Of a DNA stretch of 25,809 bases, positions 4,647-24,313 are shown one piece after another (positions within the stretch are counted from its first letter, which is position 1; every line of letters starts with the position of its first letter). Source of the DNA: a virus. The position numbers and the translations under genes were made by a program. The DNA lies in the IMG/VR virus record IMGVR_UViG_3300027692_000010, positions 1-25,809 of that record. One strand, given 5' to 3'. The notes under the pieces are model-generated. The model saw only the letters and a program-made list of their open reading frames with translations. It did no database searches and was not told the DNA's origin.

Positions 4647-4671
4647 CGGCCGCTCTCCGCTTTTGTGCTGC
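4643..4671 (-). repeat. 29-bp ribosome-binding junction repeat (copy at 5267-5295, 28/29 identical)
   Basis: The two segments differ at one base. At 4643-4671 the repeat provides the ribosome-binding site (GGAGAG) and ATG of the methyltransferase gene. At 5267-5295 the same sequence encodes the C-terminal residues STKAESSR and stop of the DUF7694-like gene, plus the same Shine-Dalgarno and a short ORF. A shorter AGCGCAGCACAA core recurs before the genes starting at 3516 and 3900. Confidence 0.7.
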
Positions 4672-5217
4672 TCAGACGGTTATCGAAAATGGTTCTGCTC
4701 TCCAGTATTCTGCTTTCTGGAACTGCACCCCAGCGGATTCTGCGCACAGCCTATCCTCTTCCCGATCTCCAACCATGAGAGCCAAGTGCGGGGGGTACAT
4801 CTCATCGGGATACATGAAAGATAAGTCTTGCTGGGCCAGGACAAGCATCCCCATCTTCGGTTTTCGACAGAAGCAATTGCGCATCTCTGGATCATGCGCC
4901 GAGGGGTGATGCTGACACATATAAATCTTGTCGAAGGCATTGCCAGAAAGATGCTGCGTTTTGGCGATAGCTAGAACAACGTTTTCAAATGAGACTTGAC
5001 CAGTTGCGATGCCTCCCTGATTGGTCACGCCGACGATCCGGTATCCTCGTTGCTTCCACGACAAAAGACGCTCTGCCATGCGAGGGAACAATTCCACATC
5101 GTCTTCGGTGTTCACGAATCGACCAAGTTCATCGAATCCCTTGCGCACGGTTCCATCCAAATCGAGAAAAAGAATCGGTACGCGCTTCATGTCTTTAACG
5201 GCTTCCTGAGAGTTCAT
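4672..5217 (-). CDS. HAD-IIIA family phosphatase (GmhB/HisB-N-like)
   Basis: A 181-residue HAD hydrolase. Motif I LFLDLDGTVRKG supplies the two catalytic Asp, motif II is VGVTNQGGI, motif III includes the Lys of CRKPKMGML, and motif IV is GDREEDRLCAESAG. Between motifs II and III, CQHHPSAHDPEMRNCFCRKP matches the Cys/His zinc-binding loop of GmhB and histidinol-phosphatase relatives, which remove phosphate from sugar phosphates. In a phage it may act on nucleic acid 3'-phosphate ends or modified-nucleotide precursors; the substrate is unknown. ATG 5217 has AAAGGT upstream; an internal Met10 start is possible. Confidence 0.8.
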   Translation of the reverse strand: MNSQEAVKDMKRVPILFLDLDGTVRKGFDELGRFVNTEDDVELFPRMAERLLSWKQRGYRIVGVTNQGGIATGQVSFENVVLAIAKTQHLSGNAFDKIYMCQHHPSAHDPEMRNCFCRKPKMGMLVLAQQDLSFMYPDEMYPPHLALMVGDREEDRLCAESAGVQFQKAEYWRAEPFSITV

Positions 5218-5265
5218 CTATACCTTTCCGGCGAAGTATCGCGTTGCTTCAAAATCTAGGGCGGC

Positions 5266-5688
5266 TCATCGGCTGCTCTCCGCTTTTGTGCTGCGCCACG
5301 CGAACGCGGGGGCATTCGGAAGCAGAAATAGGTGCCGCATGTTGGCCACGTTCACGACTTCGTTAATAGGCGGGAAGATTTCCACGGCCCAGCAATCAAA
5401 GTACCCGCATTCATTCTTGACCCGCATCAGATCATCCCAGTTCATGCCTTGCAACCAATTACCCTCGTCGTCAATCATGGTCCTCTGGACCGAAATTCGC
5501 CGTGCCCCGTTGAGTTCATCGAACACTTGCGCCAGAAATTTGCAGGAGCGGTACACTAATAATGGTTGGGCTTTCAGGTTGCCCAACGATGGGGGCCGCG
5601 CGACGAGTGGAACTGGAATCATGGCCGCGGGCCAAAGTCTATTGTGCTGGCGTAGATAGGCTTGTTTTTGGCGAATCTCCCGACCCAT
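5266..5688 (-). CDS. DUF7694-like phage protein
   Basis: A 140-residue protein. The central part ARRISVQRTMID followed by NWDDLMRVKNECGYFDCWAV and EIFPPINEVVNVANMRHLFL matches the pattern I recall for DUF7694: a small phage domain with a 'W..L..IKNE....A.E.yP....vv..AN..HL' signature. Its role is unknown. The last residues (STKAESSR) lie in a repeated junction module. AAAGGG lies about four bases before the ATG. Confidence 0.7.
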   Translation of the reverse strand: MGREIRQKQAYLRQHNRLWPAAMIPVPLVARPPSLGNLKAQPLLVYRSCKFLAQVFDELNGARRISVQRTMIDDEGNWLQGMNWDDLMRVKNECGYFDCWAVEIFPPINEVVNVANMRHLFLLPNAPAFAWRSTKAESSR

Positions 5689-5709
5689 ATCTCCCTTTCA
5701 TGTTGCTGC

Positions 5710-6021
5710 TCAGAGCACGGCTAGAACGTCGTCCAGGCTGCGCACGGTGATGCAGGTATGGCCCAAGGCTTCCACGCGGTCCCGGAACGCTCCCTGCGCC
5801 GCCTGCTGCTCTTTGTGGTGGTCTTTCTTGACGGCCTTCGTCTCCATCCAGATCGGGAGGCGATTCGGCAGGCATAAAAGCAAATCGGCGGTGCCCGGGG
5901 GACAGAGTTGCATGAATCCTCCACGCACTCTGACCTTGCCCGAATTCAGCCGCAGGACGAAGTATCCCGCCTTCTCCAGTGCTTGCCGGATCGGGCCAGT
6001 GAGGTCACTTGTCTCGCTCAA
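5710..6021 (-). CDS. VRR-NUC domain nuclease
   Basis: A 103-residue protein. The fold-typical residues are visible: an N-terminal helix (IRQALEKAGYFVLRLNSG), PPGTADLLLCLPNR with the metal-binding Asp, and IWMETKAVKKDHHKEQQAAQ carrying the E-x-K catalytic motif and the downstream Gln. VRR-NUC proteins are PD-(D/E)XK structure-selective nucleases, common singly in phages where they process branched DNA. The start is TTG 6021, supported by AGAGGAGG four bases upstream. It overlaps the preceding gene's stop. Confidence 0.85.
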   Translation of the reverse strand: MSETSDLTGPIRQALEKAGYFVLRLNSGKVRVRGGFMQLCPPGTADLLLCLPNRLPIWMETKAVKKDHHKEQQAAQGAFRDRVEALGHTCITVRSLDDVLAVL

Positions 6022-6236
6022 TCTGCCTCCTCTTCCGCATGGGTATGCTCCATCATCTCAGCCGTGCAGCATTCGCTTTCAAGATGTATTCCTGGCATGA
6101 TGCACTTGCCGGGAAAAACACAACCAATCGGGTCATCCTCGCAGTCTTCGCGCTCCTCATCGAAACCCACGCCATGCCCGCACACATCCGGATCACAATC
6201 GCTATCATCCTCGTCATCTATGTAATAAAGAGTCAT
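6018..6236 (-). CDS. Small acidic Cys-rich protein
   Basis: A 72-residue very acidic protein (YYIDDEDDSDCDPDVCGHG...) with seven Cys and several His, so metal binding is plausible. GGGAGAAG precedes the ATG. It overlaps both neighbours by 4 nt. The C terminus EHTHAEEEAD resembles the HTHxEGEE tails of the two upstream genes, suggesting that these gene ends share ancestry. Function unknown. Confidence 0.6.
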   Translation of the reverse strand: MTLYYIDDEDDSDCDPDVCGHGVGFDEEREDCEDDPIGCVFPGKCIMPGIHLESECCTAEMMEHTHAEEEAD

Positions 6237-6262
6237 TCTTCTCCCTCGCTATGGGTATGCCG
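6233..6262 (-). repeat. 30-bp gene-end repeat (copy at 6658-6687, 27/30 identical)
   Basis: On the minus strand both copies encode R-H-T-H-x-E-G-E-E and the stop. The codons for EGEE (GAGGGNGAAGAA) serve at the same time as the Shine-Dalgarno of the next gene, whose ATG overlaps the TGA. A more diverged third copy ends the gene at 6018. Confidence 0.7.
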
Positions 6263-6661
6263 GAACGTTTCAAACCAAAATACGATTGGCTCTGCATTCA
6301 CGGTAATCCGGCCAAATCGCTCGGCGTGGCGGAAATTTGGGATGTGCTTTCGCATGGACTCAATCATCCGATCCTGCAACCAACTGCGCCAGTCTTCGAT
6401 GGACTCGACTCCCTTGTCAATGTTGCATGGAACGCAGGCCGGAAACAGATTGTCCTCGCGCTGGTTGTCCGGTCGATGGCAATAACCTGCGGAAACCACC
6501 TTTCCGTATCCGGTCTTCTTGTCGGTAACGTACTTAGATGCTCTCCATACGGCCTCAACGTGATCCACATGCCACTTGTCCGTCAACTCGGACCCGCAGT
6601 ATGCGCATCGACCGCCAAACATGCCGTGGATCGTTGCGCGTTGCTCTCTGCTCAACTTCAT
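6233..6661 (-). CDS. HNH endonuclease
   Basis: A 142-residue nuclease. After a short helix, RCAYCGSELTDKWHVDHVEA gives the first zinc Cys pair and the catalytic H-V-D-H. Then REDNLFPACVPCNIDKG gives the Asn and second Cys pair, and a helical tail follows (DWRSWLQDRMIESMRKHIP). This is the McrA/phage HNH architecture. Standalone phage HNH proteins can act in packaging or as mobile nucleases; here it sits in the accessory operon beside VRR-NUC rather than beside the terminase. It overlaps both neighbouring genes by 4 nt. Confidence 0.85.
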   Translation of the reverse strand: MKLSREQRATIHGMFGGRCAYCGSELTDKWHVDHVEAVWRASKYVTDKKTGYGKVVSAGYCHRPDNQREDNLFPACVPCNIDKGVESIEDWRSWLQDRMIESMRKHIPNFRHAERFGRITVNAEPIVFWFETFRHTHSEGEE

Positions 6662-6957
6662 TCTTCGCCCTCGTCATGGGTATGCCGCTCACAGCGACAG
6701 GGATGTTGGTTGCACTGCGGGCACGGTTGCTCGCCGGGGATGGGTTCAGGGTACTTTTCCACGGCTCGCTCATAAGCCCGTTTTTGGTCTGATTGGCACA
6801 TGGTGAAATCGCTCTTGACCCATTCCCACCACTTAGCGCACTCGACGAACGCCATCCGCAAATCCTCTGGTGTGCTGCTGCCGTCAATCATGAGTGGCCC
6901 TCCATGCGAATTTTGGCGGTTCTGGAAGCACCCAGATTTGTAGTCTGGTTCGCTCAT
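6658..6957 (-). CDS. Small phage protein with C-terminal Cys cluster
   Basis: A 99-residue protein. The middle is helical (PEDLRMAFVECAKWWEWVKS) and the C-terminal part has CPQCNQHPCRCERH, a possible zinc site, then the HTHDEGEE tail shared with its neighbour. GTAGGAG lies upstream of the ATG. No family recognised. It is co-directional and overlaps the HNH gene by 4 nt. Confidence 0.6.
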   Translation of the reverse strand: MSEPDYKSGCFQNRQNSHGGPLMIDGSSTPEDLRMAFVECAKWWEWVKSDFTMCQSDQKRAYERAVEKYPEPIPGEQPCPQCNQHPCRCERHTHDEGEE

Positions 6958-6994
6958 TCACTCCTACTTTCTCGGCCCCGAGGCCGGTGCTAAA

Positions 6995-7237
6995 TCAATG
7001 ACTCTTTCCGGTGCAGTCGATGACATGGCCAGACGGGCATTTCACCGTCCGCGTCTGGGCCGTAACGAAGATGTGCACCTGCTCTAATGGTCCTCCCGGT
7101 TTTGGCTCGCAGTATGGGCAATAAACGACCAGAGAAGCCTTCCTCCCCCTATTCCCGCCGCGCTCGCTGTACATGCTGTCGGGATGTTTTGCTTTCCAAG
7201 CTTTGTTTGCAATGGCCTGACGGCCTCCGTTATCCAT
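6995..7237 (-). CDS. Zinc-ribbon-like small protein
   Basis: An 80-residue protein starting MDNGGRQAIANKAWKAK. The C-terminal half carries VVYCPYCEPKPGG and, later, VKCPSGHVIDC, two Cys pairs consistent with a zinc ribbon. A longer in-frame start at 7339 would overlap the 45-residue gene upstream entirely. AGAGG six bases before the ATG at 7237 and the position just after that gene's stop favour the short form. Confidence 0.6.
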   Translation of the reverse strand: MDNGGRQAIANKAWKAKHPDSMYSERGGNRGRKASLVVYCPYCEPKPGGPLEQVHIFVTAQTRTVKCPSGHVIDCTGKSH

Positions 7238-7239
7238 TT

Positions 7240-7377
7240 TTAGCCTCTTTTCGGTCTGACTTGTTTGTCGATTACTATCAGCCGCTCGCACAGTATGCTC
7301 AGAGATGGCATCGAAGAAACAAAAGCTCGGGGACCCCACCGCCGCTCCGCTTCCGCCAGTGCTTCTTTGCGGGTCAT
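7240..7377 (-). CDS. Small phage hypothetical protein, 45 residues
   Basis: Starts MTRKEALAEAERRWGPRAFV, an Ala/Glu/Arg-rich helix followed by WG-x-x-A, a pattern I have seen in many small phage proteins of unknown function. GGAGAAG precedes the ATG, and the stop is next to the start of the following gene. It is missed if the longer overlapping frame (start 7339) is accepted. Confidence 0.6.
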   Translation of the reverse strand: MTRKEALAEAERRWGPRAFVSSMPSLSILCERLIVIDKQVRPKRG

Positions 7378-7394
7378 TCGCTCTTCTCCTGCAT

Positions 7395-7568
7395 CTAATT
7401 AAAGCCTCCGTGCTTCGCCTCGATCAAAGTAATAGCTGCTGCGAAAAATGCCGCGTCGTCTAGCCATCCCTGCCGGTCAAGACCCCTCCTCTGTTCAGCT
7501 AACCGCAGGCAATTTCCGTGACGTTCGCGCAGCCAAACGACGACAGCATTTTTATTGATTTCCATCAT
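7395..7568 (-). CDS. Small phage hypothetical protein, 57 residues
   Basis: Starts MMEINKNAVVVWLRERHG and continues as an amphipathic helical protein (GWLDDAAFFAAAITLIEA). The second Met is also possible. Its ATG overlaps the stop of the regulator gene as ATGATG, with GGAGAAGGAG upstream inside the regulator's last codons. The same AGATGCAGGAGAAG motif recurs at its own 3' end, serving the next gene. Function unknown. Confidence 0.55.
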   Translation of the reverse strand: MMEINKNAVVVWLRERHGNCLRLAEQRRGLDRQGWLDDAAFFAAAITLIEAKHGGFN

Positions 7569-7726
7569 TGCTCCTTCTCCTGCATCTGGCGCAGCGCAAG
7601 CCGCACGATTGCCACAGCCGACAGCTTGCCATGTTTTTCCTTGAGTCGCGTCCGCAACGACCGAATGACGCGCACGTCGTCCGGCGTGAAGGACAGGCTA
7701 GTTCGTTTCAGCTTCGTTTCGACCAT
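7565..7726 (-). CDS. Ribbon-helix-helix (Arc/CopG-like) regulator
   Basis: A 53-residue protein. LKRTSLSFTPDDVRVIRSL is the expected short strand followed by helix A, and KLSAVAIVRLALRQMQ the second helix, matching the ribbon-helix-helix fold of small dimeric DNA-binding repressors. It is the first gene of the leftward operon and lies 105 bases from the divergent ERF operon, so it probably controls its own promoter, the divergent one, or both. No Shine-Dalgarno is present; the promoter places the predicted transcript start at the A of ATG. Confidence 0.65.
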   Translation of the reverse strand: MVETKLKRTSLSFTPDDVRVIRSLRTRLKEKHGKLSAVAIVRLALRQMQEKEQ

Positions 7727-7732
7727 GAACAA

Positions 7733-7761
7733 ATCCTAGCGCAATTCATTCTTGCTGTCAA
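7733..7761 (-). promoter_or_regulatory. Sigma70-type promoter for the leftward operon, leaderless geometry
   Basis: On the minus strand TTGACA (7761-7756), a 17-base spacer and TAGGAT (7738-7733) are followed by six bases and the ATG of the regulator (7726). A start seven bases after the -10 falls on the initiating A, predicting a leaderless mRNA. Confidence 0.65.
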
Positions 7762-7785
7762 TCGCATTTTGCTGTTTTTTTATGT

Positions 7786-7814
7786 TTGACGCAACGCGCG
7801 CCACGGAATACATT
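7786..7814 (+). promoter_or_regulatory. Sigma70-type promoter for the recombination/replication operon
   Basis: TTGACG (7786-7791), a 17-base spacer and TACATT (7809-7814) lie upstream of the ERF gene. The predicted start near 7821 leaves a leader of about 11 bases that still includes GGAGG (7823-7827). It is divergent from the leftward promoter 25 bases away, so one regulator could control both. Confidence 0.55.
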
Positions 7815-7831
7815 GGAGAAACGGAGGAAAT

Positions 7832-8581
7832 ATGTCAACAGATTTAGCCGTACAGGAGCAGGTCGCGCTAACGCCCCTGAGCTTGATTCAAAGCGCACTT
7901 TCATCAGGCACGCCGGTCGATGTGATCCGCGAGCTGGTGGCGCTTCAGCAGTCGATGGTTGAATTCGAGTGGAAGCGGGAAGAACGACAGGCCGAACAAG
8001 ATTTTGGCGATGCTCTCAATGACTGCCAGAGTCAAATAGGGCGCATCGCGCCCAACCAAAAGCGCAACGACACAAATTCCTGGTGGGCTGATTACGCACA
8101 GCTCGACCGCACCATTCGTCCTATCTACACCGCCGCCGGGTTTTCGATTGCGTTCTCGGAAGTCGAACCGCTGTCGCCTGGAAAGGTGAGAATCAAGGCG
8201 GCTCTAAGGCGCGGACGTATCGAGCGCGAATACTTCGCCCAGATCACGCCCACCACTACGGGTCCGAAGGGTGGCGCGATGGCGACGGCTACCGACGCTG
8301 ATGCAATCGCTCAGTCACGGGCCAAGCGATACCTGATGCTGGACATTTTCAACATCGCCATCGGCATCGACGCGGACGAAAAGAAGCCGTTTGCCGAAGC
8401 TACTCCTGCTCTCAGCGATGTTCGTTTCGGTGATCTGATGGCGGAAATCGAGGGCGCGGTGAACCCGGAGGAACGCCGGAAAGCCTTTGCGAAGGCGTGG
8501 AACGAGGCTGGGGCCATCCGGGATTTCAAATCGCGCACCCAGTTCAAGGAAGTCTACGACAAGCTGAAAGAGAATAACTGA
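7832..8581 (+). CDS. erf: ERF-family single-strand annealing protein
   Basis: A 249-residue recombinase. After an N-terminal helical part, the conserved ERF core reads WADYAQLDRTIRPIYTAAGF, then ITPTTTGPKGGAMATATDAD and AKRYLMLDIFNIAIG. ERF proteins bind ssDNA and anneal complementary strands in phage recombination and genome circularisation. The next gene is a YqaJ-type exonuclease, the usual partner that generates the single strands. GGAGG lies four bases before the ATG. Confidence 0.9.
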   Translation: MSTDLAVQEQVALTPLSLIQSALSSGTPVDVIRELVALQQSMVEFEWKREERQAEQDFGDALNDCQSQIGRIAPNQKRNDTNSWWADYAQLDRTIRPIYTAAGFSIAFSEVEPLSPGKVRIKAALRRGRIEREYFAQITPTTTGPKGGAMATATDADAIAQSRAKRYLMLDIFNIAIGIDADEKKPFAEATPALSDVRFGDLMAEIEGAVNPEERRKAFAKAWNEAGAIRDFKSRTQFKEVYDKLKENN

Positions 8582-9360
8582 TGCACCATCTTGTGAAGCA
8601 ACTCTCCCCTGAATGGCTGTCGCTCCGCACTGGTAAGGTGACGGCCTCGCGCTGCCCTGACTTGATGAAAATCCTCAAGCGCAACAGCAAGACCGGCGAG
8701 AAGGGTCAACCGACCGCCGCCCGGAGAAACTACGCTCTCGAAGTGGCCGGCGAGATTATCAGCGGTGCCGCCGCGGAACATTTCGTCACGCAATGGATGG
8801 ACGCCGGCCGGGAGAAGGAACCGCGAGCGCGGGAAGAGTACGAGGTCCGGGAGGACTGCAGAGTTCTGCCTGTTGGGTTCTTCACGCATGACACCATCCC
8901 CCGCTATGGAGCTTCGCCCGATGGCCAGCGCGGAGAAGACAGGGGGCTGGAGTTCAAATGCCCCAAGTACGAGACGCATCTGGAATACCTGCTCAATCCC
9001 GATTTGCTGGTCGAGGCGTACAAATGGCAGTGCGTAGCTGAAATGTCCTGCACCGGCTGGAAATCCGTGGATCTGGTTTCGTTCTTCGATGAGGACTGCG
9101 ACAATCTTGGCAACGTGTGCCATACGCTTCCGCCAGACTTGCAAATGCTCATCGTGCCGATTCACCGGGTCGAGGCGGAAATCAAAGACCTTGAGGACAA
9201 CATGCTTTCGTTTCTTGAGGAAGTGCAGGTTATCCTCGAAACGCTGCAATCGAAGTACGGCGGATTCGAGCCTAAGCCCAAGCGCGCGGACCCGCTGGAA
9301 GACGCGCGGACAACCGAGGAGTGGCTGGAAGACTTCGCCGGCTCCGGATTCGTACCGTAA
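8581..9360 (+). CDS. YqaJ/lambda-exonuclease-like recombinase nuclease
   Basis: A 259-residue PD-(D/E)XK nuclease. The N terminus SPEWLSLRTGKVTASRCPDL matches the YqaJ 'eW...R.g.iTaS' signature. GASPDGQRGEDRGLEFKCP supplies the catalytic Asp and E-x-K, and EAYKWQCVAEMSC is the downstream Gln-containing helix. The enzyme resects dsDNA ends so that the ERF protein can anneal. Its ATG overlaps the ERF stop by one base. The C-terminal third is a charged helix (VEAEIKDLEDNMLSFLEEVQ). Confidence 0.9.
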   Translation: MHHLVKQLSPEWLSLRTGKVTASRCPDLMKILKRNSKTGEKGQPTAARRNYALEVAGEIISGAAAEHFVTQWMDAGREKEPRAREEYEVREDCRVLPVGFFTHDTIPRYGASPDGQRGEDRGLEFKCPKYETHLEYLLNPDLLVEAYKWQCVAEMSCTGWKSVDLVSFFDEDCDNLGNVCHTLPPDLQMLIVPIHRVEAEIKDLEDNMLSFLEEVQVILETLQSKYGGFEPKPKRADPLEDARTTEEWLEDFAGSGFVP

Positions 9361-9384
9361 CGCAATCGGTGGCACAATGGTAAC

Positions 9385-9543
9385 GTGAATTGCCACTACT
9401 GCCATACCGAAGGATTGACGCGGGTGAGAACCGAGACAGGCTGGCGCTTGTTCTTTGGCACTCACCTGCATCTTTGTTTGGGCTGGCGAAGGAAGCTGGC
9501 GCGGCTGGCGAATCGTGCAATTTTAACCGTTGCCCGAGGGTAA
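9385..9543 (+). CDS. Small zinc-finger-like protein
   Basis: A 52-residue ORF starting at GTG: MNCHYCHTEGLTRVRTETGW then LFFGTHLHLCLGWRRK. The Cys pair and His/Cys cluster suggest one zinc site with a basic tail, so nucleic-acid binding is possible. There is no convincing Shine-Dalgarno, only GGTGG about 12 bases upstream, so it is a moderate call. It occupies half of the 305-base gap between YqaJ and the replication gene. Confidence 0.45.
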   Translation: MNCHYCHTEGLTRVRTETGWRLFFGTHLHLCLGWRRKLARLANRAILTVARG

Positions 9544-9559
9544 ACCGTGGCAGTATAAT
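9530..9559 (+). promoter_or_regulatory. Promoter for the replication genes
   Basis: TTGCCC (9530-9535), an 18-base spacer and a perfect TATAAT (9554-9559) lie about 105 bases upstream of the DUF1376 gene. The predicted transcript starts near 9566 and carries a structured 100-base leader. Confidence 0.55.
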
Positions 9560-9617
9560 TTAAGAAAGCCTGCGCCCAGCTTGCTTTCACGGATCGGCTC
9601 GCTACCGCTCCCAGTTT

Positions 9618-9661
9618 CGGGGGAGTCCTCAAGCTCCCCCGGAGCGACCAACTTGAGGGGG
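9618..9661 (+). promoter_or_regulatory. Alternative hairpins over the replication-gene ribosome-binding site
   Basis: Hairpin 1 pairs CGGGGGAG (9618-9625) with CTCCCCCG (9634-9641). Hairpin 2 pairs CCTCAAG (9627-9633) with CTTGAGG (9652-9658) and covers the start of GAGGGGG (9655-9661), the Shine-Dalgarno of the next gene. Hairpin 2 uses the loop of hairpin 1, so the two largely exclude each other. CTCCCCC could also pair with the GAGGGGG itself. This could tune translation of the replication initiator. Confidence 0.45.
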
Positions 9662-9665
9662 AAAC

Positions 9666-10550
9666 TTGGCCACTAAGGTCGATATATGGATGCCGCTATC
9701 CATCGGTGATTACCTCGCGGACACATCGCACTTGAGCACGCTGGAACATGGCGCCTATCTTCTTATGCTCATGCACTACTGGCGCAAGGGTCCGCTGCCA
9801 AACGATTCCGTCAAATTAGCCAACATATGTAAGATGTCTCCGGATGCTTGGAGCATGGTCCAAGCAGTGCTCATGGAGTTCTTGAGCATAGGCGAGGATG
9901 GCTTGCTACACCAGACTCGCGCCGACAGGGAACGGGCGAAATGGATGGAAAAGAAGGATTCCGCGCAAGAAAAGGCCAAAAAGGCTGCAAAAGCACGGTG
10001 GGATAATGCTCCAAGCAATGCTCCAAGCATTCCTCAAGCAATGCTTGACTCATGCCCGTCATCGTTACCGTTACCTATTGAAGAACAAAAGCAAATACCT
10101 TCTCCGAAGCCGCGCAAGCGCGTTTCGGAGGGGCGTAAGAAAAAGGAACTTGTCGCCAGACCCACGAAGACCGATTTCGACAAGGAACGCCACCGGCAGT
10201 TCAAGACAGCCATCTTCTCCTACTGGCGAAGCAAGAACCAGATCGACTGCCCTTGGGGTCAGCCGGAGGGGAGGCAATTGGAAATCTGGCTCCGCGCCAA
10301 CCCCGCAATCCTCGTCGACGAGTTCACCGCCATACTTCGCAATCGCTTCAAGTCTGAAGTGAATCACTCCGAGCGGCCATCGAAGTGGATTCGCAATGTC
10401 ACGGATTACGCTACCGGACCTTTGGATCGCTTCGGCAAGCCCATCCACGTTGCCAACGGCAAGCCTCCAGAGCCGCTCCCCAAATCCGATTACGAACTTG
10501 CCCGCGAACAGGCCATGAGAGAAAGAGCAGGATTGCGCCATGCCGACTGA
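9666..10550 (+). CDS. DUF1376-type phage replication initiation protein
   Basis: A 294-residue protein. Residues 6-90 match DUF1376 (WMPLSIGDYLADTSHLSTLE, HGAYLLMLMHYWRKGPLP...), a winged-helix DNA-binding domain of phage replication organisers. A charged linker (residues ~95-165) holds low-complexity NAPSNAPS and Lys-rich segments. The C-terminal half (FKTAIFSYWRSKN..., RPSKWIRNVTDYATGP) may contact the helicase encoded next. The start is TTG 9666, with GAGGGGG four bases upstream. The gene overlaps the helicase gene by 11 nt, as in lambda O/P-like pairs. Confidence 0.8.
   Translation: MATKVDIWMPLSIGDYLADTSHLSTLEHGAYLLMLMHYWRKGPLPNDSVKLANICKMSPDAWSMVQAVLMEFLSIGEDGLLHQTRADRERAKWMEKKDSAQEKAKKAAKARWDNAPSNAPSIPQAMLDSCPSSLPLPIEEQKQIPSPKPRKRVSEGRKKKELVARPTKTDFDKERHRQFKTAIFSYWRSKNQIDCPWGQPEGRQLEIWLRANPAILVDEFTAILRNRFKSEVNHSERPSKWIRNVTDYATGPLDRFGKPIHVANGKPPEPLPKSDYELAREQAMRERAGLRHAD
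10005..10048 (+). repeat. Iteron-like 12-bp repeats inside the replication gene
   Basis: AATGCTCCAAGC is tandemly repeated at 10005-10016 and 10017-10028, followed by a related ATTCCTCAAGC and AATGCTTGA. A similar CCAAGCAGTGCTC occurs near 9860. The repeats fall in the linker between the N- and C-terminal parts of the initiator, where lambdoid phages place their origin iterons. The origin role is inferred from that parallel. Confidence 0.45.
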
Positions 10551-11838
10551 GAACATCACCCCCAATTGCGTGGAAAGCGAGAGAATCATCCTCGGATCTG
10601 TCCTGCTGAATCAGGATTATCTTTTGGAGGCCGAGGACAAGATTTCGCCGGATGATTTTTTCCTCGACTCTCACCGCCTGATTTTCCGCAGGATGTGCGA
10701 CATCAACCGCCAGGACCGGGGGATAGATTTCGAGACGCTTGCTCAGGAATTGGATTCGCACAAGGAATTGAGTTCGGTGGGCGGAAGGTCGTACATCATC
10801 GACTTGACCAGCGGGCTACCCCGCCGGCCGGTAATCGAAGATCACATTCGGCTGATGAAGGACTTCTCGGTTTTGCGGAGTTTGCTTTCGATAGCCGGTT
10901 CGACTCAGGCAAGAGCCTACGACCACGGCGAGTCTGCGATGGAAATAGCCGCCTGGACGGATTCGGCCATACAAACCCTTATCGAGACGGGACGGGCGCC
11001 TACAGACGCCTCTAGCGGGGCGGCAGAGGCCAGTATAGAGTTCCTCGACGAGTTCGAGCGCAGGGCAAACTTGCAAGAGGACGACACAATCTCCTATGGC
11101 CTGATGCCAGAGTTCGATGGATTGACTGGGGGGATGTTCCCCGGCGAGGTTACAGTGATCGGCGGCGAATCGGGCGTGGGAAAATCCTCTGCGATGATTC
11201 AGGCGCTGGTTTTTTCCGGGAAGCGGGGGATTCCCTCAGTCTGCTATTCGCTGGAAATGACCCGCGCTCAGGTTCTCGGCAGAATTTGTTCGGTAATTTC
11301 GAGGGTGCCGTATCGTTTCATCCGCTTCCCCCAAACTGCGAATTTGGAGCAGAGGCGAGATATTCGCGCTGCAGCATACCGGATAGGCGAGTGGCCCATG
11401 CAGACCTTCGACCAGTCCGGCATGACCATAGGCGAGATTGTGGCATCGGCGCGCATACAAATCAAGCGCAAGGGGGCCCGGCTGATTTGCGTGGATTACT
11501 TGCAGGAGATTGAGGTTCCAGGGATCAAAGAGGAGCGGCTGAAAGTATCGGAGGCCGCGAAAAGGCTGGCGCGGGTCGTGAAGGGAACCCCGGCGCACAT
11601 GCTCATGCTCTCACAGCTCGCGCGGCGGGAAGACAACGGAATACCGCAGATGAAGCAGCTCAGGGAGTCGGGCAAGATTGAGAACGTGGCTCACTGCATT
11701 GCTTTGCTCTGGCGGGAGTTCGACCGCGAACGCGGCCACCATTTGACGACGGGCAAGGTCGTTGTGCCGAAGAACCGCTTCGGATACACCGGCAATGTAG
11801 ACACGATTTTCAACAGCGATTACGCGATTTTCCAATAG
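10540..11838 (+). CDS. DnaB-type replicative helicase
   Basis: A 432-residue hexameric 5'-3' helicase. Residues 1-110 are the DnaB N-terminal helical domain (SERIILGSVLLN...DDFFLDSHRLIF). The RecA-like domain has Walker A GGESGVGKSS (208-217), the catalytic Glu in YSLEM (239), Walker B LICVDYLQ (315-322), SQLARRED (sensor, ~359) and KNRFG (~411). Length is slightly below bacterial DnaB (~470). It is coupled to the DUF1376 initiator, which probably loads it. Confidence 0.92.
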   Translation: MPTENITPNCVESERIILGSVLLNQDYLLEAEDKISPDDFFLDSHRLIFRRMCDINRQDRGIDFETLAQELDSHKELSSVGGRSYIIDLTSGLPRRPVIEDHIRLMKDFSVLRSLLSIAGSTQARAYDHGESAMEIAAWTDSAIQTLIETGRAPTDASSGAAEASIEFLDEFERRANLQEDDTISYGLMPEFDGLTGGMFPGEVTVIGGESGVGKSSAMIQALVFSGKRGIPSVCYSLEMTRAQVLGRICSVISRVPYRFIRFPQTANLEQRRDIRAAAYRIGEWPMQTFDQSGMTIGEIVASARIQIKRKGARLICVDYLQEIEVPGIKEERLKVSEAAKRLARVVKGTPAHMLMLSQLARREDNGIPQMKQLRESGKIENVAHCIALLWREFDRERGHHLTTGKVVVPKNRFGYTGNVDTIFNSDYAIFQ

Positions 11839-17214: not shown

Positions 17215-17610
17215 ATGCCAGCAGGTAGACCATCCTTCAATTGGACACCAGAGATTGAGTCCGAAATCATCGACCGGATTCTCTCTGGCGAAGCTATTGA
17301 GGACATTGTTGATTCTGTTGGGGTTAGCGCAAGAACGTTTTATCGTCGCAAGGCGGATGACGCAGAATTCGGCGCAAGTATCGCGCGCGCGCAAAGCGAG
17401 GCTCAGGATGCGTGGGTTGATCGCACGGAAAGGCTAATGCTTTCAGCGACTTCCGAGAACTGGCAGCTCGTGCAGTTCCAGTGTCGGCACATTGCTTGGA
17501 TCGCGGGAAAGCGCAAGCCGAAGGTCTACGGCGACAAGATTCAGCAGGAGATTACCGGCTCACTCGACCTTGCCGGCCGTCTCTCCGCAGCTCGTGAGCG
17601 CAAGAAGTAA
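17215..17610 (+). CDS. terS: Terminase small subunit (Sf6-type)
   Basis: A 131-residue protein. GRPSFNWTPEIESEIIDRIL starts the N-terminal helix-turn-helix domain, which continues with SGEAIEDIVDSVGVSARTFY and RRKADDAEFGASIARAQSEA. The C-terminal part has RHIAWIAGKRKPKVYGDKI, typical of the Sf6 gp1-like family. TerS recognises the pac/cos site and recruits TerL, encoded about 480 bases downstream. There is no clear Shine-Dalgarno; TAAATT six bases before the ATG may be a -10. Confidence 0.8.
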   Translation: MPAGRPSFNWTPEIESEIIDRILSGEAIEDIVDSVGVSARTFYRRKADDAEFGASIARAQSEAQDAWVDRTERLMLSATSENWQLVQFQCRHIAWIAGKRKPKVYGDKIQQEITGSLDLAGRLSAARERKK

Positions 17611-17972: not shown

Positions 17973-18091
17973 TCTTTGGACTGTGGCTCTCGGCAATCTC
18001 CATCGTTTGGGGCGTGTACATCATGGCCAAGATTCACCAGGCGCGTCTCCGCATCCAAAACCCTGAGCAAGAGATGCCTGACTGGCGATGA
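17969..18091 (+). CDS. Small membrane protein upstream of TerL, 40 residues
   Basis: MIFGLWLSAISIVWGVYIMA then KIHQARLRIQNPEQEMPDWR: one transmembrane helix and a polar tail. The start overlaps the preceding stop (ATGA) and the stop overlaps the TerL ATG (ATGA), so it probably couples TerL translation. Function unknown. Confidence 0.55.
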   Translation: MIFGLWLSAISIVWGVYIMAKIHQARLRIQNPEQEMPDWR

Positions 18092-20544
18092 CGGCAGCCG
18101 AGCAAATCCTCGACGAGATTGCGTCTTACGCTGCCGATCCGCTTGGGTTCGCTCAGTTTGCGTTTCCTTGGGGAGAACCAGGTCCGCTCGAAAACGAGTC
18201 TATCCGCGAGTGGCAGGCCGACGTATTCAATACGATTGGCAAGCATCTGCAGAGTCCATTCCGGTTCCAGCCGCTCAAGATCGCTATCGCATCGGGTCAT
18301 GGTATTGGCAAGACGGCTGAGATTGCGATGATCTGCTCGTGGGCGATGAGCACCTGCGATGATTGCCGGGTGCTGGTGACGGCGAATACAGAGGATCAGC
18401 TCACGACCAAGACTTGGCCGGAGATGGTCAAGTGGTTTGGCCTGTCGATTAATCGGGACTGGTGGAACATCTCTGCGACTCGCATCACATCGCGTCAGGC
18501 TGGGCATGAGAGCACTTGGAGATTGGACCGCGAAACGTGGTCCGAGAACAACACCGAGGCGTTCCAGGGGCTACACAACCGGCGGAAGCGCATTGTTCTG
18601 ATCTTCGATGAGGGCTCGGCAATCCCCAAGACTGTCTGGGATGTGGCTGAAGGCGCTTTGACGGATGAAGATACCGAAATCATCTTTCTTGTGTTCGGCA
18701 ATCCGACGCAGAACGATACTCCATTCGCCGAGTGCTTTGGAGCGCAGAAGCATCGCTGGGTGACGCGGCACATTGACTCGCGAACTGTGCCGGGGACGAA
18801 CAAAGAGCAGATCGACCGATGGATTGCCGACTTTGGCGAGGATTCGGACTTCGTTCGGGTCAGGGTCAGAGGCGAGTTCCCGCGCGCAGGCGGGTTGCAG
18901 TTCATTCCGCAGGACTTGGTAGCGGCGGCTCGGAAGCGTCAGTGCCAGCCGAGCGGCTACAAGATTATGAGCGTTGACGTTGCCCGGTCGGGGTTCAATC
19001 AGACGGTTGTGGGCTGGCGCTGGGGGCAAGTGGCGCACATCACAGACAAATGGCGTGGCCTGTCGATCCCAGATCAATCAGGGAGAATTGCCCTGCGGAT
19101 CATGGAAGAGGATGCGCGATGCGTCATCATCGACGGCGATGGAATCGGAGGAGCTGTTTCCGATCACCTGCGCATGATGCTGCCCAAGCCTAACCAGCCC
19201 GTCAAGGAATGGCCGGATACTGCTCTGACGCGCTGGTTCAAGACGCATCCATGGTTTACAGTTCAGGAGTTTCATGGAGGTCTGCCGGCGGCCGACAAGT
19301 TCATGTATTTCAATAAGCGTGCCGAGGTCTGGGGTAAGGTCAAGACGTGGCTGGAACATGCGGACATTGACGACGATCCCGAGTTGGAGCGGGACTTGAC
19401 AGGGCCGAGGTTCGACACTGACAACCCAAAGTCGGTGATCCAGCTGGAGCGCAAAGAGGATATGCGAGACCGGGGCGTAGACTCGCCCGATTGCTTCGTG
19501 GCGGGAACCATGATTCGCACGCCTAGCGGCGAGCGGCCAATTGAATCGCTCAAGGTGGGCGACCAGGTATTGACTCCGTTCGGACCATCGCGCATCTGCG
19601 TCAGGCACGTGAGCATGTCGGACAGGCTGACAACAGTTCGATTTTCTAGCGGGTCAATCCTCACAGGCAAAGGGAAACACAAGGTTTTTACGTGGACCGG
19701 CGCGAAACGCCTTGATATACTGTCCATGACAGACGAGGTGGAATCATGGTCGTGGATGAGGTATCTGGAGTGGCGCTGCGTGAGTTTGTTCTTTACCGAG
19801 GCGAGAATTTTTGGCTTCAAACAAGCGGTCGATACTTTCAATCCGGGCGCAAGGGTTCGTCTGAGAGACTTTTGCATCGCCGGGTTTGGATTGACAACTT
19901 TGGGTCGATTCCTGAAGGCTTTGAGGTCCACCATAAAGACGATGATTGGCGCAATAGCGACCCTGACAACCTCGAACTCATGGCCGGTGCCGATCACCGA
20001 AGACTTCACGCTCTTCAGCGCAATGCCACTCAGGCTGGATATGCGTCATCGCTGCGAGGCTTGGCGGCTGGAAGAGACAAGGCAGCGGAGTGGCATCGGT
20101 CCGAACAGGGCCGGGCGTGGCATAGTCAAACCGCGATTAACAACGTGTGGCGACCAGACAGAGCCATGCTTCCGCGCACCTGTATCAGATGCAATTCCCA
20201 GTTCGAGGCTTTCTTTGCTAGAGCGATGTATTGCTCCAATAGCTGCATTCAGAAAGCAGCCTACGCGCGTCGTGGACGTGCAGACCGAAAGCGCAAGAGA
20301 GTTGACGTATAACCTAACCCTGCGTGAGAACAACGCTTATTGGGCCAACGGAATACTCGTCTTCAATTGCGGTGATCAGCTGTGCATGACGTTCGCGGCG
20401 AACCCGATGGCAGAGACGCGGGAAGAGAAGACCAAGCGGGAGCAGGCGGCAATCAAAGACCCGATGGAGCTGCATTTTGCGCGGTTGCGTGAGACGCAGC
20501 GACGGGAGAAGCTGAAGCAGGGAGGCAACTATTGGGATACGTAG
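18088..20544 (+). CDS. terL: Terminase large subunit, interrupted by an intein
   Basis: An 818-residue precursor; removing the intein (residues 469-760) leaves 526, a normal TerL length. The ATPase domain has Walker A SGHGIGKT (69-76), Walker B IVLIFDEGS (169-177) and the FGNPT coupling motif (203-207). The RNase H-like nuclease domain has IMSVDVARSG (Asp297), then CVIIDGDGIGG, and finally the split motif SPD|CGDQLCMTF. TerL pumps DNA into the prohead and cuts it, so packaging should require splicing to rejoin the last motif. The C-terminal part is charged and helical (EEKTKREQAAIKDP). Confidence 0.93.
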   Translation: MTAAEQILDEIASYAADPLGFAQFAFPWGEPGPLENESIREWQADVFNTIGKHLQSPFRFQPLKIAIASGHGIGKTAEIAMICSWAMSTCDDCRVLVTANTEDQLTTKTWPEMVKWFGLSINRDWWNISATRITSRQAGHESTWRLDRETWSENNTEAFQGLHNRRKRIVLIFDEGSAIPKTVWDVAEGALTDEDTEIIFLVFGNPTQNDTPFAECFGAQKHRWVTRHIDSRTVPGTNKEQIDRWIADFGEDSDFVRVRVRGEFPRAGGLQFIPQDLVAAARKRQCQPSGYKIMSVDVARSGFNQTVVGWRWGQVAHITDKWRGLSIPDQSGRIALRIMEEDARCVIIDGDGIGGAVSDHLRMMLPKPNQPVKEWPDTALTRWFKTHPWFTVQEFHGGLPAADKFMYFNKRAEVWGKVKTWLEHADIDDDPELERDLTGPRFDTDNPKSVIQLERKEDMRDRGVDSPDCFVAGTMIRTPSGERPIESLKVGDQVLTPFGPSRICVRHVSMSDRLTTVRFSSGSILTGKGKHKVFTWTGAKRLDILSMTDEVESWSWMRYLEWRCVSLFFTEARIFGFKQAVDTFNPGARVRLRDFCIAGFGLTTLGRFLKALRSTIKTMIGAIATLTTSNSWPVPITEDFTLFSAMPLRLDMRHRCEAWRLEETRQRSGIGPNRAGRGIVKPRLTTCGDQTEPCFRAPVSDAIPSSRLSLLERCIAPIAAFRKQPTRVVDVQTESARELTYNLTLRENNAYWANGILVFNCGDQLCMTFAANPMAETREEKTKREQAAIKDPMELHFARLRETQRREKLKQGGNYWDT
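19735..19745 (+). promoter_or_regulatory. Shine-Dalgarno of the nested HNH gene
   Basis: GAGGTGG (19735-19741) is placed so that GAGG lies seven bases before ATG 19746. It sits inside the intein coding sequence, just after the block-B region, and allows independent translation of the endonuclease. Confidence 0.65.
19746..20312 (+). CDS. HNH homing endonuclease nested out of frame in the terminase intein
   Basis: A 188-residue protein in the -1 frame relative to TerL. After a short lead it has SGRYFQSGRKGSSERLLHRR (the recurring segment before many HNH_3 domains), then EGFEVHHKDDDWRNSDPDNL with His62-His63 and Asn75, and GADHRRLHALQRN with His84 and His88. The C-terminal part has TCIRCNSQFEAFFARAMYC followed by SNSC: Cys146, 149, 163 and 167 form a zinc finger. 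The tail RRGRADRKRKRVDV is basic and overlaps intein block F in the other frame. Such enzymes cut intein-free alleles to drive homing. It has its own ribosome-binding site and TAA stop. Confidence 0.88.
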   Translation: MVVDEVSGVALREFVLYRGENFWLQTSGRYFQSGRKGSSERLLHRRVWIDNFGSIPEGFEVHHKDDDWRNSDPDNLELMAGADHRRLHALQRNATQAGYASSLRGLAAGRDKAAEWHRSEQGRAWHSQTAINNVWRPDRAMLPRTCIRCNSQFEAFFARAMYCSNSCIQKAAYARRGRADRKRKRVDV

Positions 20545-20678
20545 AGTGGGCAGTCGAGGCCTTGGAATTGGAAAAGTTTACCGCTTTTATTCCGAGTCTA
20601 GTCACGCATTTTGACAAGATAGCATCTCATTGGAACAACTTGGGTACAGGTAGCCGAATGTGTAGTCTTTCTGATTGA
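20532..20678 (+). CDS. Small ORF after TerL, 48 residues
   Basis: Begins at TTG 20532 with GGAGG (20521-20525) six bases upstream, overlapping the end of TerL by 13 nt. MGYVEWAVEALELEKFTAFI then PSLVTHFDKIASHWNNLGTG. The ALELEKFxAxIPS block is shared with the ORF at 17026, hinting at a duplicated small gene flanking the terminase genes. Function unknown. Confidence 0.45.
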   Translation: MGYVEWAVEALELEKFTAFIPSLVTHFDKIASHWNNLGTGSRMCSLSD

Positions 20679-20703
20679 CATTGCAGGCGAAAGGTGTATT
20701 GAT

Positions 20704-20952
20704 ATGTCTATGCGTGCTCTCCTCCGAAGGCTGATTGGCTGGGATGAACTGGGTGACCGGTTTTTCTCGGCCGACTCGGCTAGGAAGATGGAGACCGTTC
20801 TCTGCGATGAGATCGAGCGGTTGCGCAATGAAATCCAGTTCCTGAAGTCCAGGCAGCGGGCCAATCCGCCCTCCCCCAAGATTCCCGATACGTGGGAAGA
20901 AGTCATGTCGTCGTTTATGTCCGATACGGAGCATTTCAAGGAGCAATCTTGA
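20704..20952 (+). CDS. Small coiled-coil phage protein, 82 residues
   Basis: MSMRALLRRLIGWDELGDRF, then KMETVLCDEIERLRNEIQFL forming a coiled coil, and a C-terminal DTWEEVMSSFMSDTEHFKEQ. AAAGGTG lies eight bases upstream, and TTGACA at 20675 may be part of a local promoter. Family unknown; the position suggests a head-assembly or packaging accessory. Confidence 0.6.
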   Translation: MSMRALLRRLIGWDELGDRFFSADSARKMETVLCDEIERLRNEIQFLKSRQRANPPSPKIPDTWEEVMSSFMSDTEHFKEQS

Positions 20953-21278
20953 GCACAGCAGGTTATGGGATGAAGTTCAGCAAGGGCTATCTTGGCCCCG
21001 GTTCTGGCGGCGGCAAGAGTGAGCCGGAAGCCAAAGGCAAGCCGATGGGCGAAGAGCACCAGGACGGCGCGAATGATGGCGCGAATGATGGCGAGGATCA
21101 TCAGGGAGCGATTCACGAGCACCTAAAGGCGATGCACGCCGCCACCGGGCACGGTCACTCGCACATCGAACACGCGCCGGAAGGCCACATGGCGCATCAC
21201 ATCGACCATGAAGGCCAGATTTCCGGGCCGGAACCGACCGAGGATTGCCCCGGTGGAATGTGCGGAGGTGGAATGTGA
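20949..21278 (+). CDS. Gly/His/Asp-rich phage protein with Cys end
   Basis: Starts at TTG 20949, overlapping the previous stop as TTGA with AAGGAG upstream; a longer frame from 20892 would overlap further and is unlikely. MSTAGYGMKFSKGYLGPGSG is followed by the repeat DGANDGANDGEDHQ, then a His-rich stretch HAATGHGHSHIEHAPEGHMA and the end DCPGGMCGGGM. The composition suggests metal binding, perhaps a virion or head-accessory protein. Family unknown. Confidence 0.55.
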   Translation: MSTAGYGMKFSKGYLGPGSGGGKSEPEAKGKPMGEEHQDGANDGANDGEDHQGAIHEHLKAMHAATGHGHSHIEHAPEGHMAHHIDHEGQISGPEPTEDCPGGMCGGGM

Positions 21279-21600: not shown

Positions 21601-21798
21601 ATGGCCGAAAAGAAGGTCAATCTTGGGTCGAAGGGGAGCTTCCACATCAAGGAAGGCTCCCTGCATGCCATGCTGCACGTTCCGCAGGGCCAGAAGATAG
21701 GTCAGGCGAAGATGAAGGCGGCCTCGCATTCCAGCAATCCTACCTTACGTAAGAAGGCGATCAGCGGGTTAGGTCTTTCCGCGATGCATCATGGCTGA
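21601..21798 (+). CDS. Small basic phage protein (SFHIKEGSLHAML type)
   Basis: A 65-residue protein: KGSFHIKEGSLHAMLHVPQG, then KIGQAKMKAASHSSNPTLRK and KAISGLGLSAMHHG. I recall the 'sF.vk.G.LH.mLgvp.g..ip' and 'NP.LrkrA' blocks from head-operon small phage proteins. Function unknown. It overlaps the portal gene by 8 nt. Confidence 0.65.
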   Translation: MAEKKVNLGSKGSFHIKEGSLHAMLHVPQGQKIGQAKMKAASHSSNPTLRKKAISGLGLSAMHHG

Positions 21799-24313
21799 TT
21801 TTCCCGAACGCACCGGAGTAGTCGAGAACGAAGCAGACTCCGGGCAACCGGAAGACGAAGGTCCGCGCCTCACTCCAATCAACTTCGACGATTACGACTA
21901 CACTCCAGGCGAACGAGCGCCATGGCGATGCTCTCCAAAGCCCTGCTACGGGCCGGATGAGCTTGGATTCCTTCGTGGGGCTATCGACGAGCTAATCAAG
22001 GGCACAGAGCAGGCAGACGCGGCGGCGCGCATCTGGGAGGTACTGCAGGCGTGGGAACAGAGGCTGTTTCGCAGGAACTACCACTTCCTGAATGCGGGCT
22101 GGAAAGGCTGGGGGATGTTCGGCGGGAGCTCGGGTACGACGGGTGCCTCTATTCTCCAGACACAGAATTCCATGAAGTTGTTCTCCTGCAACGTGTTCGG
22201 AGCGCGTCACAAGAAGATCGTGGCGCTTTTAAGCCGCGAAGTTCCGCCGACTGAGGTTGTGCCGGCCGGCGAGAACACGATGGATCAGGAGACGGCGCAG
22301 GAGGCGATTCCGTACCTCAAGGCATTCCGCGAGCAGGCGAAGATGCGCAAGCGGATGCAGGAGGTCGGATCGTATCTCTACACCGATGGATCGGCGGTAA
22401 TGCTGACGTATACGGTGGCGGACCGCAAGTATGGGATTGAGATCGATGACGAGGGCAATCCGGGACCGGCGCGGCGCGAAGAGGTTGAAGTATTCGGCAA
22501 GCTGGAGCGCAAAATCCCGCTTCAGGCGGACGATCTTGAATCGGCGGGGTGGATCAGGCTTTCCAAGGAAAAGAGCCGCTCGATCCTGAAAGCGCGGTAT
22601 CCATGGATTCGCGACAGGATAGGTGGCGGCGCCAACAAGGACGCGATGGGTCAGATCGACCGTATGGCGCGGGCGAATGTGCGACTGGCCGTGCAGGCAT
22701 CAAGCACCAGTGGGGAAGCCTACTCGGAGGACACGACAGAATCGGCATATTTCTTCCGTCCCAGCCAGTACGAATCGATTGCCGACGAGAATATGAGGGA
22801 CATGCTCTATGAGGAGTTTGCTTCGGGGCTGGAGGTTTGGACCGCCGGGGGTGAGATTGGGCTGGTTAGGGAAAGTTCACTGGATGGGCCTGACGGTCAC
22901 GTTGCGCTGTGCCACGCAACCCCCGGCGACGGCCAGAACCGAGAATCCATCGGTACGAATTACCTTCCGATTCAAAAAGTCCTAAACGCCACCATTTCGC
23001 TGTACGACCGTTACTTTCGGGCCAACGTCCCGAAGCGCATGGCCGGTGAGCCGTTCATCGACGTAGAGGCTGCAAATCAGCAGGCCAACGATCCGGCGAA
23101 GTTCATCCCCGTCGACATGATGAGCCTGATTCAGAATGGGTTGAAAATTCAGGACATTACCGGCATCGAGAACGTCTCGCAGCCCAATGTGGCGATTCTG
23201 ACCTACATTCAATACCTGATTCAGCAGTTGCCGGCAGAGTTGGATGGCGGACAGCCTGCGGTGTTTGGCGGAGATGGCGATGCGGATGGTCAAGGCACGT
23301 TCGGCGAAGCCCGGTTGGATCGCGACCAGGCGCTGCAGGTCTATTCCCTGCCGTGGGGCGATATGTCAAGCGCGGTAGCGTGTCTGGAGGCGCAGGCGAT
23401 CAAGTCGGCGTCGGAGAATCGGAAGTCGGATTTTTCGCTGGGACTGCCGGGTGAGCGCATCAGCGTTTCCGTAGGCAAGCTGGGTGGGAATGTCTTGGTG
23501 TGGCCGTCGAGCACCGAGATACCGCCGTCGATGGCCGAACAGCAGGCCGAAATCGGCGCGATGATCCAGGCGGCGCCGACGACTCCGTTCTATGCGGGGA
23601 TTCTGGCCGATCCGAGAAACCTACAATCGTTCCGGCGTTTGCCGTCCCTGTCTGGATTGAAACTCCCTGGGCTCGACGACGTGACTGCGCAGGTCGAGGA
23701 CAACATCAAACTGCTTTCGAGCGAGCCTTTGCCGAACCCGGTTATACCGCAGATGGAGCAGCAGATTCAGCAGATCGACCAGCAAGCGGCGATGGCGGCG
23801 CAGCAGACACTCGACCCGATGCAGCGCCAGCAAATCGTTCAGCAAGCCCAGCAGCAGGCCGCGCAGCTTCAACAGCAGCTCACTCAGTTGCCGCCGCTGG
23901 TAACGAGCGTGCCGGTCGCGCAGGATGCCAGCGAGGACCACCAGATTCGCGCGGCAATTGCGCTGGCAGAGATGAAATCGCCGCGAGGTAGAGCGGCAAA
24001 GGTAGGTAATGAGCAACAGCAGAAAGGCTTCCTGAATCTGTCGTTGAACTGGCAGGCGCATGCGCAGATCGCGGCGCAACTTGCTCCGCCCCCGACGATG
24101 GAGAGCAGGGCATCGTTCACGGTTGACCCGACAAAGCTCCCGCCCGATGCGCAGACGATTGCTTTTGAGAAAATGGGGCTCAAGATTCCGCCGATTGCCT
24201 TGCAGGTTCAGCCGCAAGAGCATGAAGTGACAGAGGAATCGGAAGGACTCGACCCGCAGAGTGGCGTGCCGGTCAAGCGCAAGGTTTCAGTGGTTGGAAA
24301 GCCACTGAATTAG
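21791..24313 (+). CDS. Portal protein (P22-like podovirus type)
   Basis: An 840-residue protein. The N-terminal two thirds contain the mixed core of large podoviral portals, with FREQAKMRKRMQEVGSYLYT, LPIQKVLNATISLYDRYFRA and PKRMAGEPFIDVEAANQQAN as conserved-looking blocks. Residues ~650-700 are Gln-rich coiled coil (MEQQIQQIDQQAAMAAQQTL), comparable to barrel/helical ends of portals. The portal forms the dodecameric channel at the capsid vertex and docks TerL. Position right after the terminase block and length both fit. Confidence 0.75.
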   Translation: MADFPERTGVVENEADSGQPEDEGPRLTPINFDDYDYTPGERAPWRCSPKPCYGPDELGFLRGAIDELIKGTEQADAAARIWEVLQAWEQRLFRRNYHFLNAGWKGWGMFGGSSGTTGASILQTQNSMKLFSCNVFGARHKKIVALLSREVPPTEVVPAGENTMDQETAQEAIPYLKAFREQAKMRKRMQEVGSYLYTDGSAVMLTYTVADRKYGIEIDDEGNPGPARREEVEVFGKLERKIPLQADDLESAGWIRLSKEKSRSILKARYPWIRDRIGGGANKDAMGQIDRMARANVRLAVQASSTSGEAYSEDTTESAYFFRPSQYESIADENMRDMLYEEFASGLEVWTAGGEIGLVRESSLDGPDGHVALCHATPGDGQNRESIGTNYLPIQKVLNATISLYDRYFRANVPKRMAGEPFIDVEAANQQANDPAKFIPVDMMSLIQNGLKIQDITGIENVSQPNVAILTYIQYLIQQLPAELDGGQPAVFGGDGDADGQGTFGEARLDRDQALQVYSLPWGDMSSAVACLEAQAIKSASENRKSDFSLGLPGERISVSVGKLGGNVLVWPSSTEIPPSMAEQQAEIGAMIQAAPTTPFYAGILADPRNLQSFRRLPSLSGLKLPGLDDVTAQVEDNIKLLSSEPLPNPVIPQMEQQIQQIDQQAAMAAQQTLDPMQRQQIVQQAQQQAAQLQQQLTQLPPLVTSVPVAQDASEDHQIRAAIALAEMKSPRGRAAKVGNEQQQKGFLNLSLNWQAHAQIAAQLAPPPTMESRASFTVDPTKLPPDAQTIAFEKMGLKIPPIALQVQPQEHEVTEESEGLDPQSGVPVKRKVSVVGKPLN

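Follow-up and report, generated by a model that had tools for sequence, protein, structure and literature searches.

The terminase large-subunit gene (terL) described here raises the question of how a single stretch of DNA can hold both the splicing blocks of an intein and a complete endonuclease gene read in a different frame. The gene lies in a viral sequence of 25,809 nucleotides (IMG/VR virus record IMGVR_UViG_3300027692_000010, positions 1-25,809), which was analysed in full and is referred to below as the window, and forms one open reading frame (ORF) of 818 codons (18088-20544) with no stop throughout. We propose, with a probability of roughly 0.86, that the insertion in terL is a mobile mini-intein and that its homing endonuclease, of the HNH type, is a separately translated gene overlapping the host gene in another frame.

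Intein blocks A, B, F and G are all found in the terL frame. Pfam Hint_2 matches the start of the intein (E = 2e-9) and TIGR01443 (intein_Cterm) its end, and Cys1 (Cys469 of the ORF), His63 and Asn292 are invariant in 62 relatives, 56 of which are matched by Pfam Intein_splicing. Cys1 is the block A nucleophile, His63 lies in a block B in which the usual Thr is replaced (GKGKH), and block G consists of Asn292 and Cys+1, with Phe as the penultimate residue in place of His. The AlphaFold2 (AF2) model of the host-frame intein has the Hint fold, its top Foldseek matches being inteins, with predicted local distance difference test (pLDDT) values of 94-98 over residues 1-90, 91-97 over residues 261-292 and about 49-73 in the middle (about residues 100-250). 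The gp41-1 intein, a split intein that occurs naturally in a fractured gene, is its best sequence match in the Protein Data Bank (PDB). No endonuclease family matches residues 85-272 in the terL frame, so the in-frame endonuclease of a canonical intein is missing.

An endonuclease is instead encoded by the same DNA in the -1 frame relative to terL (Table 1). A preliminary description of the locus, made from its sequence, had placed the four splicing blocks in the TerL frame around a middle without endonuclease, and had delimited a 188-residue HNH protein from ATG to TAA downstream of a GAGG; the family matches agree with the former, and every coordinate of the description was confirmed. Its remark that the last HNH codons double as the start of block F is also correct, since the TAA lies within TAT AAC. 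HNH_3 is present in all 60 aligned relatives, in which the zinc-finger-like Cys residues are nearly invariant, giving an HNH motif with a DNA-binding appendage. The HNH protein is modeled with a mean pLDDT of 91.5, and its closest PDB entry is I-HmuI (1u3e), with a sequence E value of 0.0026 and a weak fold match; Pfam and PDB searches with the HNH proteins returned no named family nearer than HNH_3 and I-HmuI. Three relatives (L003, L042 and L061) have HNH proteins that are longer in the N-terminal part, and the extra part of L003 looks like a degenerate second HNH-like copy.

The host protein is a terminase large subunit by its PHROG assignment, made with the N-extein, and residues 1-467 share 44-45% identity with epsilon15/AF-type large terminases. 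The predicted spliced TerL aligns across the junction with the uninterrupted TerL of phage AF (231/482 identities) and of epsilon15 (232/475 identities). The intein lies in the active-site region of the nuclease domain, unlike the mycobacteriophage TerL inteins surveyed in PMC5050341, which lie in the ATPase domain. Intein-free TerL homologues with an empty site exist, and the distribution of the intein is sporadic. The terL gene of the window is a single ORF and not the split gene of a fractured-gene or split-intein locus.

Table 1. Features of the terL locus, with one context gene, and comparable helicase inteins at other loci
Feature	Position	Strand	Evidence
Intein read in the terL frame, 292 amino acids from Cys1 to Asn292; the next residue is Cys+1	19492..20367	+	Matched by Hint_2, Intein_splicing and intein_Cterm
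Splicing domain, N-terminal half: blocks A and B with His63 (residues 1-95 of the intein)	19492..19776	+	AF2, Foldseek
Intein blocks F and G (RELTYNLTLRENNAYWANGILVFN)	20296..20367	+	TIGR01443; own hidden Markov model, E 8e-14; AF2
HNH endonuclease gene, 188 amino acids, ATG to TAA, -1 frame relative to terL	19746..20312	+	HNH_3, E 1.5e-12
Shine-Dalgarno-like GAGGT, 6 nucleotides ahead of the HNH ATG	19735..19739	+	Sequence; Shine-Dalgarno enrichment across loci
HNH_3 motif region, nested-gene residues 42-84; H62, H63, N75 and H84 conserved	19869..19997	+	HNH_3 match; alignment of relatives
C-terminal CxxC...CxxxC zinc-finger-like motif (C146, C149, C163, C167)	20181..20246	+	Alignment of relatives
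HNH stop TAA, made by the host-frame Tyr-Asn codons of block F	20310..20312	+	Sequence
TerL N-extein, 468 amino acids, ends ...RGVDSPD at the nuclease-domain site	18088..19491	+	TerL alignments, PHROG
TerL C-extein, begins at Cys+1, includes the terL stop	20368..20544	+	Alignment with the C-terminal end of intein-free TerL
Terminase small subunit (Sf6 type), context gene	17215..17610	+	PF20901, E 3.7e-18
Helicase inteins with nested DUF559-type gene, other loci	L118:2501-3397; L121:2501-3331; L163:2501-3334		

The two-frame layout is recurrent: it is common to at least three families of host gene and to two unrelated families of endonuclease. When phage records were searched by tblastn with the HNH protein, matches fell within terL as annotated in three isolated phages, Acinetobacter phage Highwayman, Tetrasphaera phage TJE1 and Rhodobacteraceae phage LS06-2018-MD07. 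Each has a contiguous intein whose blocks B and F enclose the HNH gene in the same offset frame, and the annotation there lists the terminase alone. All 14 viral contigs retrieved first share the layout, and a wider scan seeded by a 7-sequence HNH alignment provided 80 further loci. Loci with at least 95% HNH identity were removed and the others were classified with hidden Markov models for the Hint N-half, the Hint C-half and the HNH protein. The resulting 87 HNH clusters comprise 66 with a single host ORF and the HNH gene in the -1 frame, two with a single host ORF and the HNH gene in the +1 frame (L081 and L100), five with a broken host ORF, four of them having the HNH gene between the halves of a split intein, and 14 in which no intein pair was detected, most of these being HNH genes next to terL. 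The HNH gene is in frame with its host in none of the 87. A second retrieval, seeded by the intein N-domain only and blind to HNH, gave nesting in the -1 frame at 34 of 59 loci, 21 contiguous inteins without this HNH (mini-inteins among these) and again no in-frame HNH (0/59); some contigs are common to both retrievals. Exteins of the loci are often just 15-30% identical. The scan of genome contigs yielded one locus, L102 (Prevotellaceae contig ONQS01000014.1), where a bacterial assembly contains a terminase intein with a nested HNH gene; an apparent single frameshift or indel near 2834-2870 breaks the host frame.

The layout also extends beyond terminases. The same HNH intein is found in a DegT/DnrJ/EryC1/StrS aminotransferase gene (L067, 2150-4255), and helicase inteins with SNF2 or ResIII hosts (L118, L121-L124/L126 and L163) carry an unrelated endonuclease nested in the +1 frame. 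The latter has a DUF559/MTES_1575 fold (PD-(D/E)XK-like), in one case with a NUMOD3 motif, and at these loci 8-13 host-frame stops are expected and none of 3000 synonymous shuffles left the host frame open. At two further loci, L027 (2974-3615) and L028 (2986-3651), an internal stop disrupts the HNH gene and the host frame is still open, a pattern to be expected if the element can do without homing but not without splicing.

Openness of the host frame across the HNH gene is only suggestive at the terL locus of the window taken alone: given the HNH protein, its probability is 0.135 by synonymous codon permutation and 0.0075 by random back-translation. The homologues decide the matter, as none of the 64 nested loci tested has a host-frame stop across the HNH gene, the random back-translation expectation for nested loci being a mean of 5.3. 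Control relatives without a detected intein have a mean of 6.5 stops, with 2 of 14 open, and one of these two, L080, carries a Hint N-half. Nesting in the -1 frame predominates because the other frame would hold about 18 stops; the +1-frame loci L081 and L100 are open despite about 13 expected stops.

Substitution rates were obtained from four close pairs, pooled, per weighted opportunity. Substitutions that are silent in the HNH frame and change the host frame occur at a rate of 0.050, those that change HNH and are silent in the host at 0.012, and those that change both frames at 0.009; the rate for substitutions silent in both frames is 0.050, from 3 events only, and is about equal to the host-changing rate. 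HNH-silent changes creating a host stop number 0 in 81 weighted opportunities, with about 4 expected, and distant pairs keep 45-75% identity in the HNH frame vs 20-50% in the overlapped host frame. These rates and identities indicate that the HNH protein is under purifying selection and that the overlapped host frame drifts near neutrality except for the avoidance of stops, which argues for recent endonuclease activity. The preliminary description had judged the open host frame moderately improbable, correctly for a single locus, and the 64 open homologues remove that doubt; it had also expected homologues to keep the two-frame layout, which they do at 66 non-redundant loci, with purifying selection on the HNH frame and the splicing blocks only. 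The in-frame HNH relatives with compensating indels that it had set against its own proposal were sought and are absent from both independent retrievals.

Separate translation of the HNH gene, also put forward in that description, is supported by its ATG and by an enrichment of Shine-Dalgarno (SD) matches, and is probable on these signals: a match of at least 4 nucleotides precedes the first HNH ATG at 60% of loci vs 15% in shuffles, and one of at least 6 nucleotides at 18% vs 0.8%.

In the mechanism that we propose, blocks A, B, F and G in the terL frame make up a full mini-intein splicing domain, and the roughly 160-190 residues that join its halves amount to a meaningless +1 reading of the HNH gene. 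All 292 residues of the segment would be spliced out, with ligation of TerL across the active-site region of its nuclease domain. The HNH gene, with its own SD sequence and ATG, would be translated in the -1 frame from the same mRNA, and its product would be a free 188-residue I-HmuI-like HNH homing endonuclease that cuts intein-free terL, whereupon the whole segment would be copied. The sole demand on the overlapped host frame would be to stay stop-free. The -1 frame is preferred because host stops there require Leu, Ile, Val or Met codons at particular junctions of the HNH gene, which leaves about a third as many potential stop junctions as in the other frame.

This arrangement shares features with several known systems. 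As in canonical mobile inteins (PI-SceI type, and the HNH-bearing DnaB/GyrB type), an endonuclease expected to drive homing interrupts the Hint domain between blocks B and F, but here the endonuclease is a separate gene in another frame and stands outside the spliced protein. Fractured genes with split inteins, reportedly described by Dassa and colleagues in 2009, are said to carry a free-standing homing endonuclease gene between the halves; the likeness is that the endonuclease is a separate protein between intein halves, and the difference is that here the host frame is uninterrupted and splicing would occur in cis. I-HmuI, the closest solved structure by sequence and fold, has the same HNH_3 domain and is carried in a group I intron, whereas a search of positions 18000-21000 against Rfam returned no match at E<=1, to a group I or group II intron or to any other family, and a group I intron as the carrier was ruled out on that basis. 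The literature searched describes HNH genes inserted out of frame in two cases only, ShiLan and Pacc40, both in DNA methylase genes of actinophages (PMC11855218, 2025). The ShiLan HNH gene likewise lies out of frame inside a phage gene with the host frame open through the insert, but it has no detectable splicing domain or ribosome-binding site, whereas the terL insert has intact blocks A, B, F and G, and SD sequences are present at many loci. For overlapping frames, PMC11855218 cites a 2025 preprint by Gosselin, Arsenault and Gogarten on actinophage inteins of 'non-canonical' architecture (bioRxiv 10.1101/2025.01.02.630785), which, to judge from its title and this citation, may describe related cases that overlap with this finding.

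Alternative explanations account for some of these observations. A chance overlap or an assembly error, whether an accidentally open frame or an ordinary in-frame HNH intein altered by a pair of compensating indels, would be compatible with the single-locus openness probabilities of 0.0075-0.135, but it is refuted by the homologues and we consider its likelihood negligible: the same layout and frame occur at 66 non-redundant loci, finished isolate phages included, neither retrieval contains an in-frame relative, and the host-frame sequence is unrelated to HNH and unconserved. The HNH protein could also arise by programmed -1 frameshifting in terL, as an extein-IntN-HNH fusion without internal initiation, and its position exactly in the host -1 frame at 66 of 68 contiguous nested loci would fit such a mechanism. 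This frame bias is, however, explained by stop-codon statistics alone, and the +1-frame cases (L081, L100 and the nested DUF559 genes) would require another shift. A slippery heptamer is suitably placed at 3 of 63 loci only, the HNH frame is open for just 3-54 nucleotides upstream of its start in most loci, and that start is an ATG with enriched SD matches; frameshifting was rejected for its few slippery sites and appears very unlikely.

We regard it as improbable that the HNH protein, instead of being a homing enzyme, assists the terminase in packaging, the role proposed for the HK97-type HNH proteins encoded next to terminase genes. Nearly all relatives do lie in or adjoin terL, and terminase-adjacent HNH proteins are known to assist cos cleavage (PMC10448857), but such a role sits poorly with the HNH genes of L027 and L028, broken in open host frames, with the same HNH-intein in the aminotransferase gene of L067, with an unrelated endonuclease at the same nested position in helicase genes, and with a sporadic distribution that includes empty-site homologues. 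It is also highly unlikely that the intein has ceased to splice and that only the nested HNH gene survives, as an out-of-frame insertion of the ShiLan kind that the host protein tolerates. Although ShiLan elements do persist without splicing domains (PMC11855218) and Phe replaces the penultimate His in the terL intein, Cys1, His63 and Asn292 are invariant among the relatives, the insertion falls in the active-site region of an essential gene, and the splicing halves are confidently modeled as an intein.

Several points weigh against a mobile mini-intein with an overlapping endonuclease gene. The loci are related by descent and their counts are not independent events, and 40% of the nested loci have no clear SD sequence before the first ATG. 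With block G ending in Phe-Asn instead of His-Asn and block B without the usual Thr, the terL copy of the intein could splice slowly or not at all. With extein divergence held constant, HNH and Hint divergence are only weakly correlated (partial Mantel 0.095, 25/500 permutations), so that co-mobility of the HNH gene and the intein as one unit is not demonstrated by these distances, which are near saturation. The analysis establishes the anatomy, the recurrence, the selection on the HNH frame and the avoidance of stops in the host frame, whereas splicing, independent translation, cleavage of intein-free terL and homing are inferred.

Four loci (L059, L075, L078 and L096) show a split state with the same HNH family as the nested loci: the host terminase gene is split and the HNH gene stands between the split-intein halves. 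The N-half ends near the HNH gene start, and the intein C-half starts inside the HNH gene or at its end; the C-half start overlaps the HNH stop in L059 and L075 (ATGA and GTGA overlaps), and AAGGAG precedes the C-half ATG in L078. The split state would be reachable from the nested state through a host-frame stop and a start codon, although the direction of change is itself our interpretation. We lean slightly toward the view that out-of-frame nesting is a general and common phage-intein architecture that has arisen more than once and lies a short step from split-intein fractured genes. The step is short because a host-frame stop plus a C-half start gives the arrangement of these four loci, and more than one origin is suggested by HNH in TerL and in the DegT aminotransferase as opposed to the DUF559/PD-(D/E)XK-like endonuclease in helicases.

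Recurring in dozens of unrelated phages, the nested-endonuclease layout looks like an overlooked but common one for mobile inteins. If so, many phage 'mini-inteins with a junk insert' would in fact be mobile, their mobility gene having been missed by annotation through its overlap with an essential gene in another frame. Splicing and homing would be separate at the protein level, and each could be lost or regulated alone. The layout would also offer a path, open to direct test, by which contiguous inteins could become natural split inteins, the parts of which are widely used tools and the origin of which is an open question. It would likewise be a clean system for evolution in two frames, with selection at the protein level on one and only the avoidance of stops demanded of the other.

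Further observations concern gene order. In L089 (2700-3650) the HNH gene follows terL, and the terminase C-terminal sequence GDCxRYDLCNFEYTTFKxLGHYQK is found on both sides of it, as if insertion had duplicated the gene end. In the window, an ORF of 840 amino acids downstream of terL (21791-24313) occupies the usual portal position, and neither Pfam (E<=0.05) nor PHROGs contains a family that matches it. Upstream, positions 3951-11838 contain DNA methyltransferase-like and polynucleotide kinase-like genes, both on the minus strand, and genes for an Erf-like annealing protein, a RecE-like exonuclease, a primosomal protein and a DnaB helicase.
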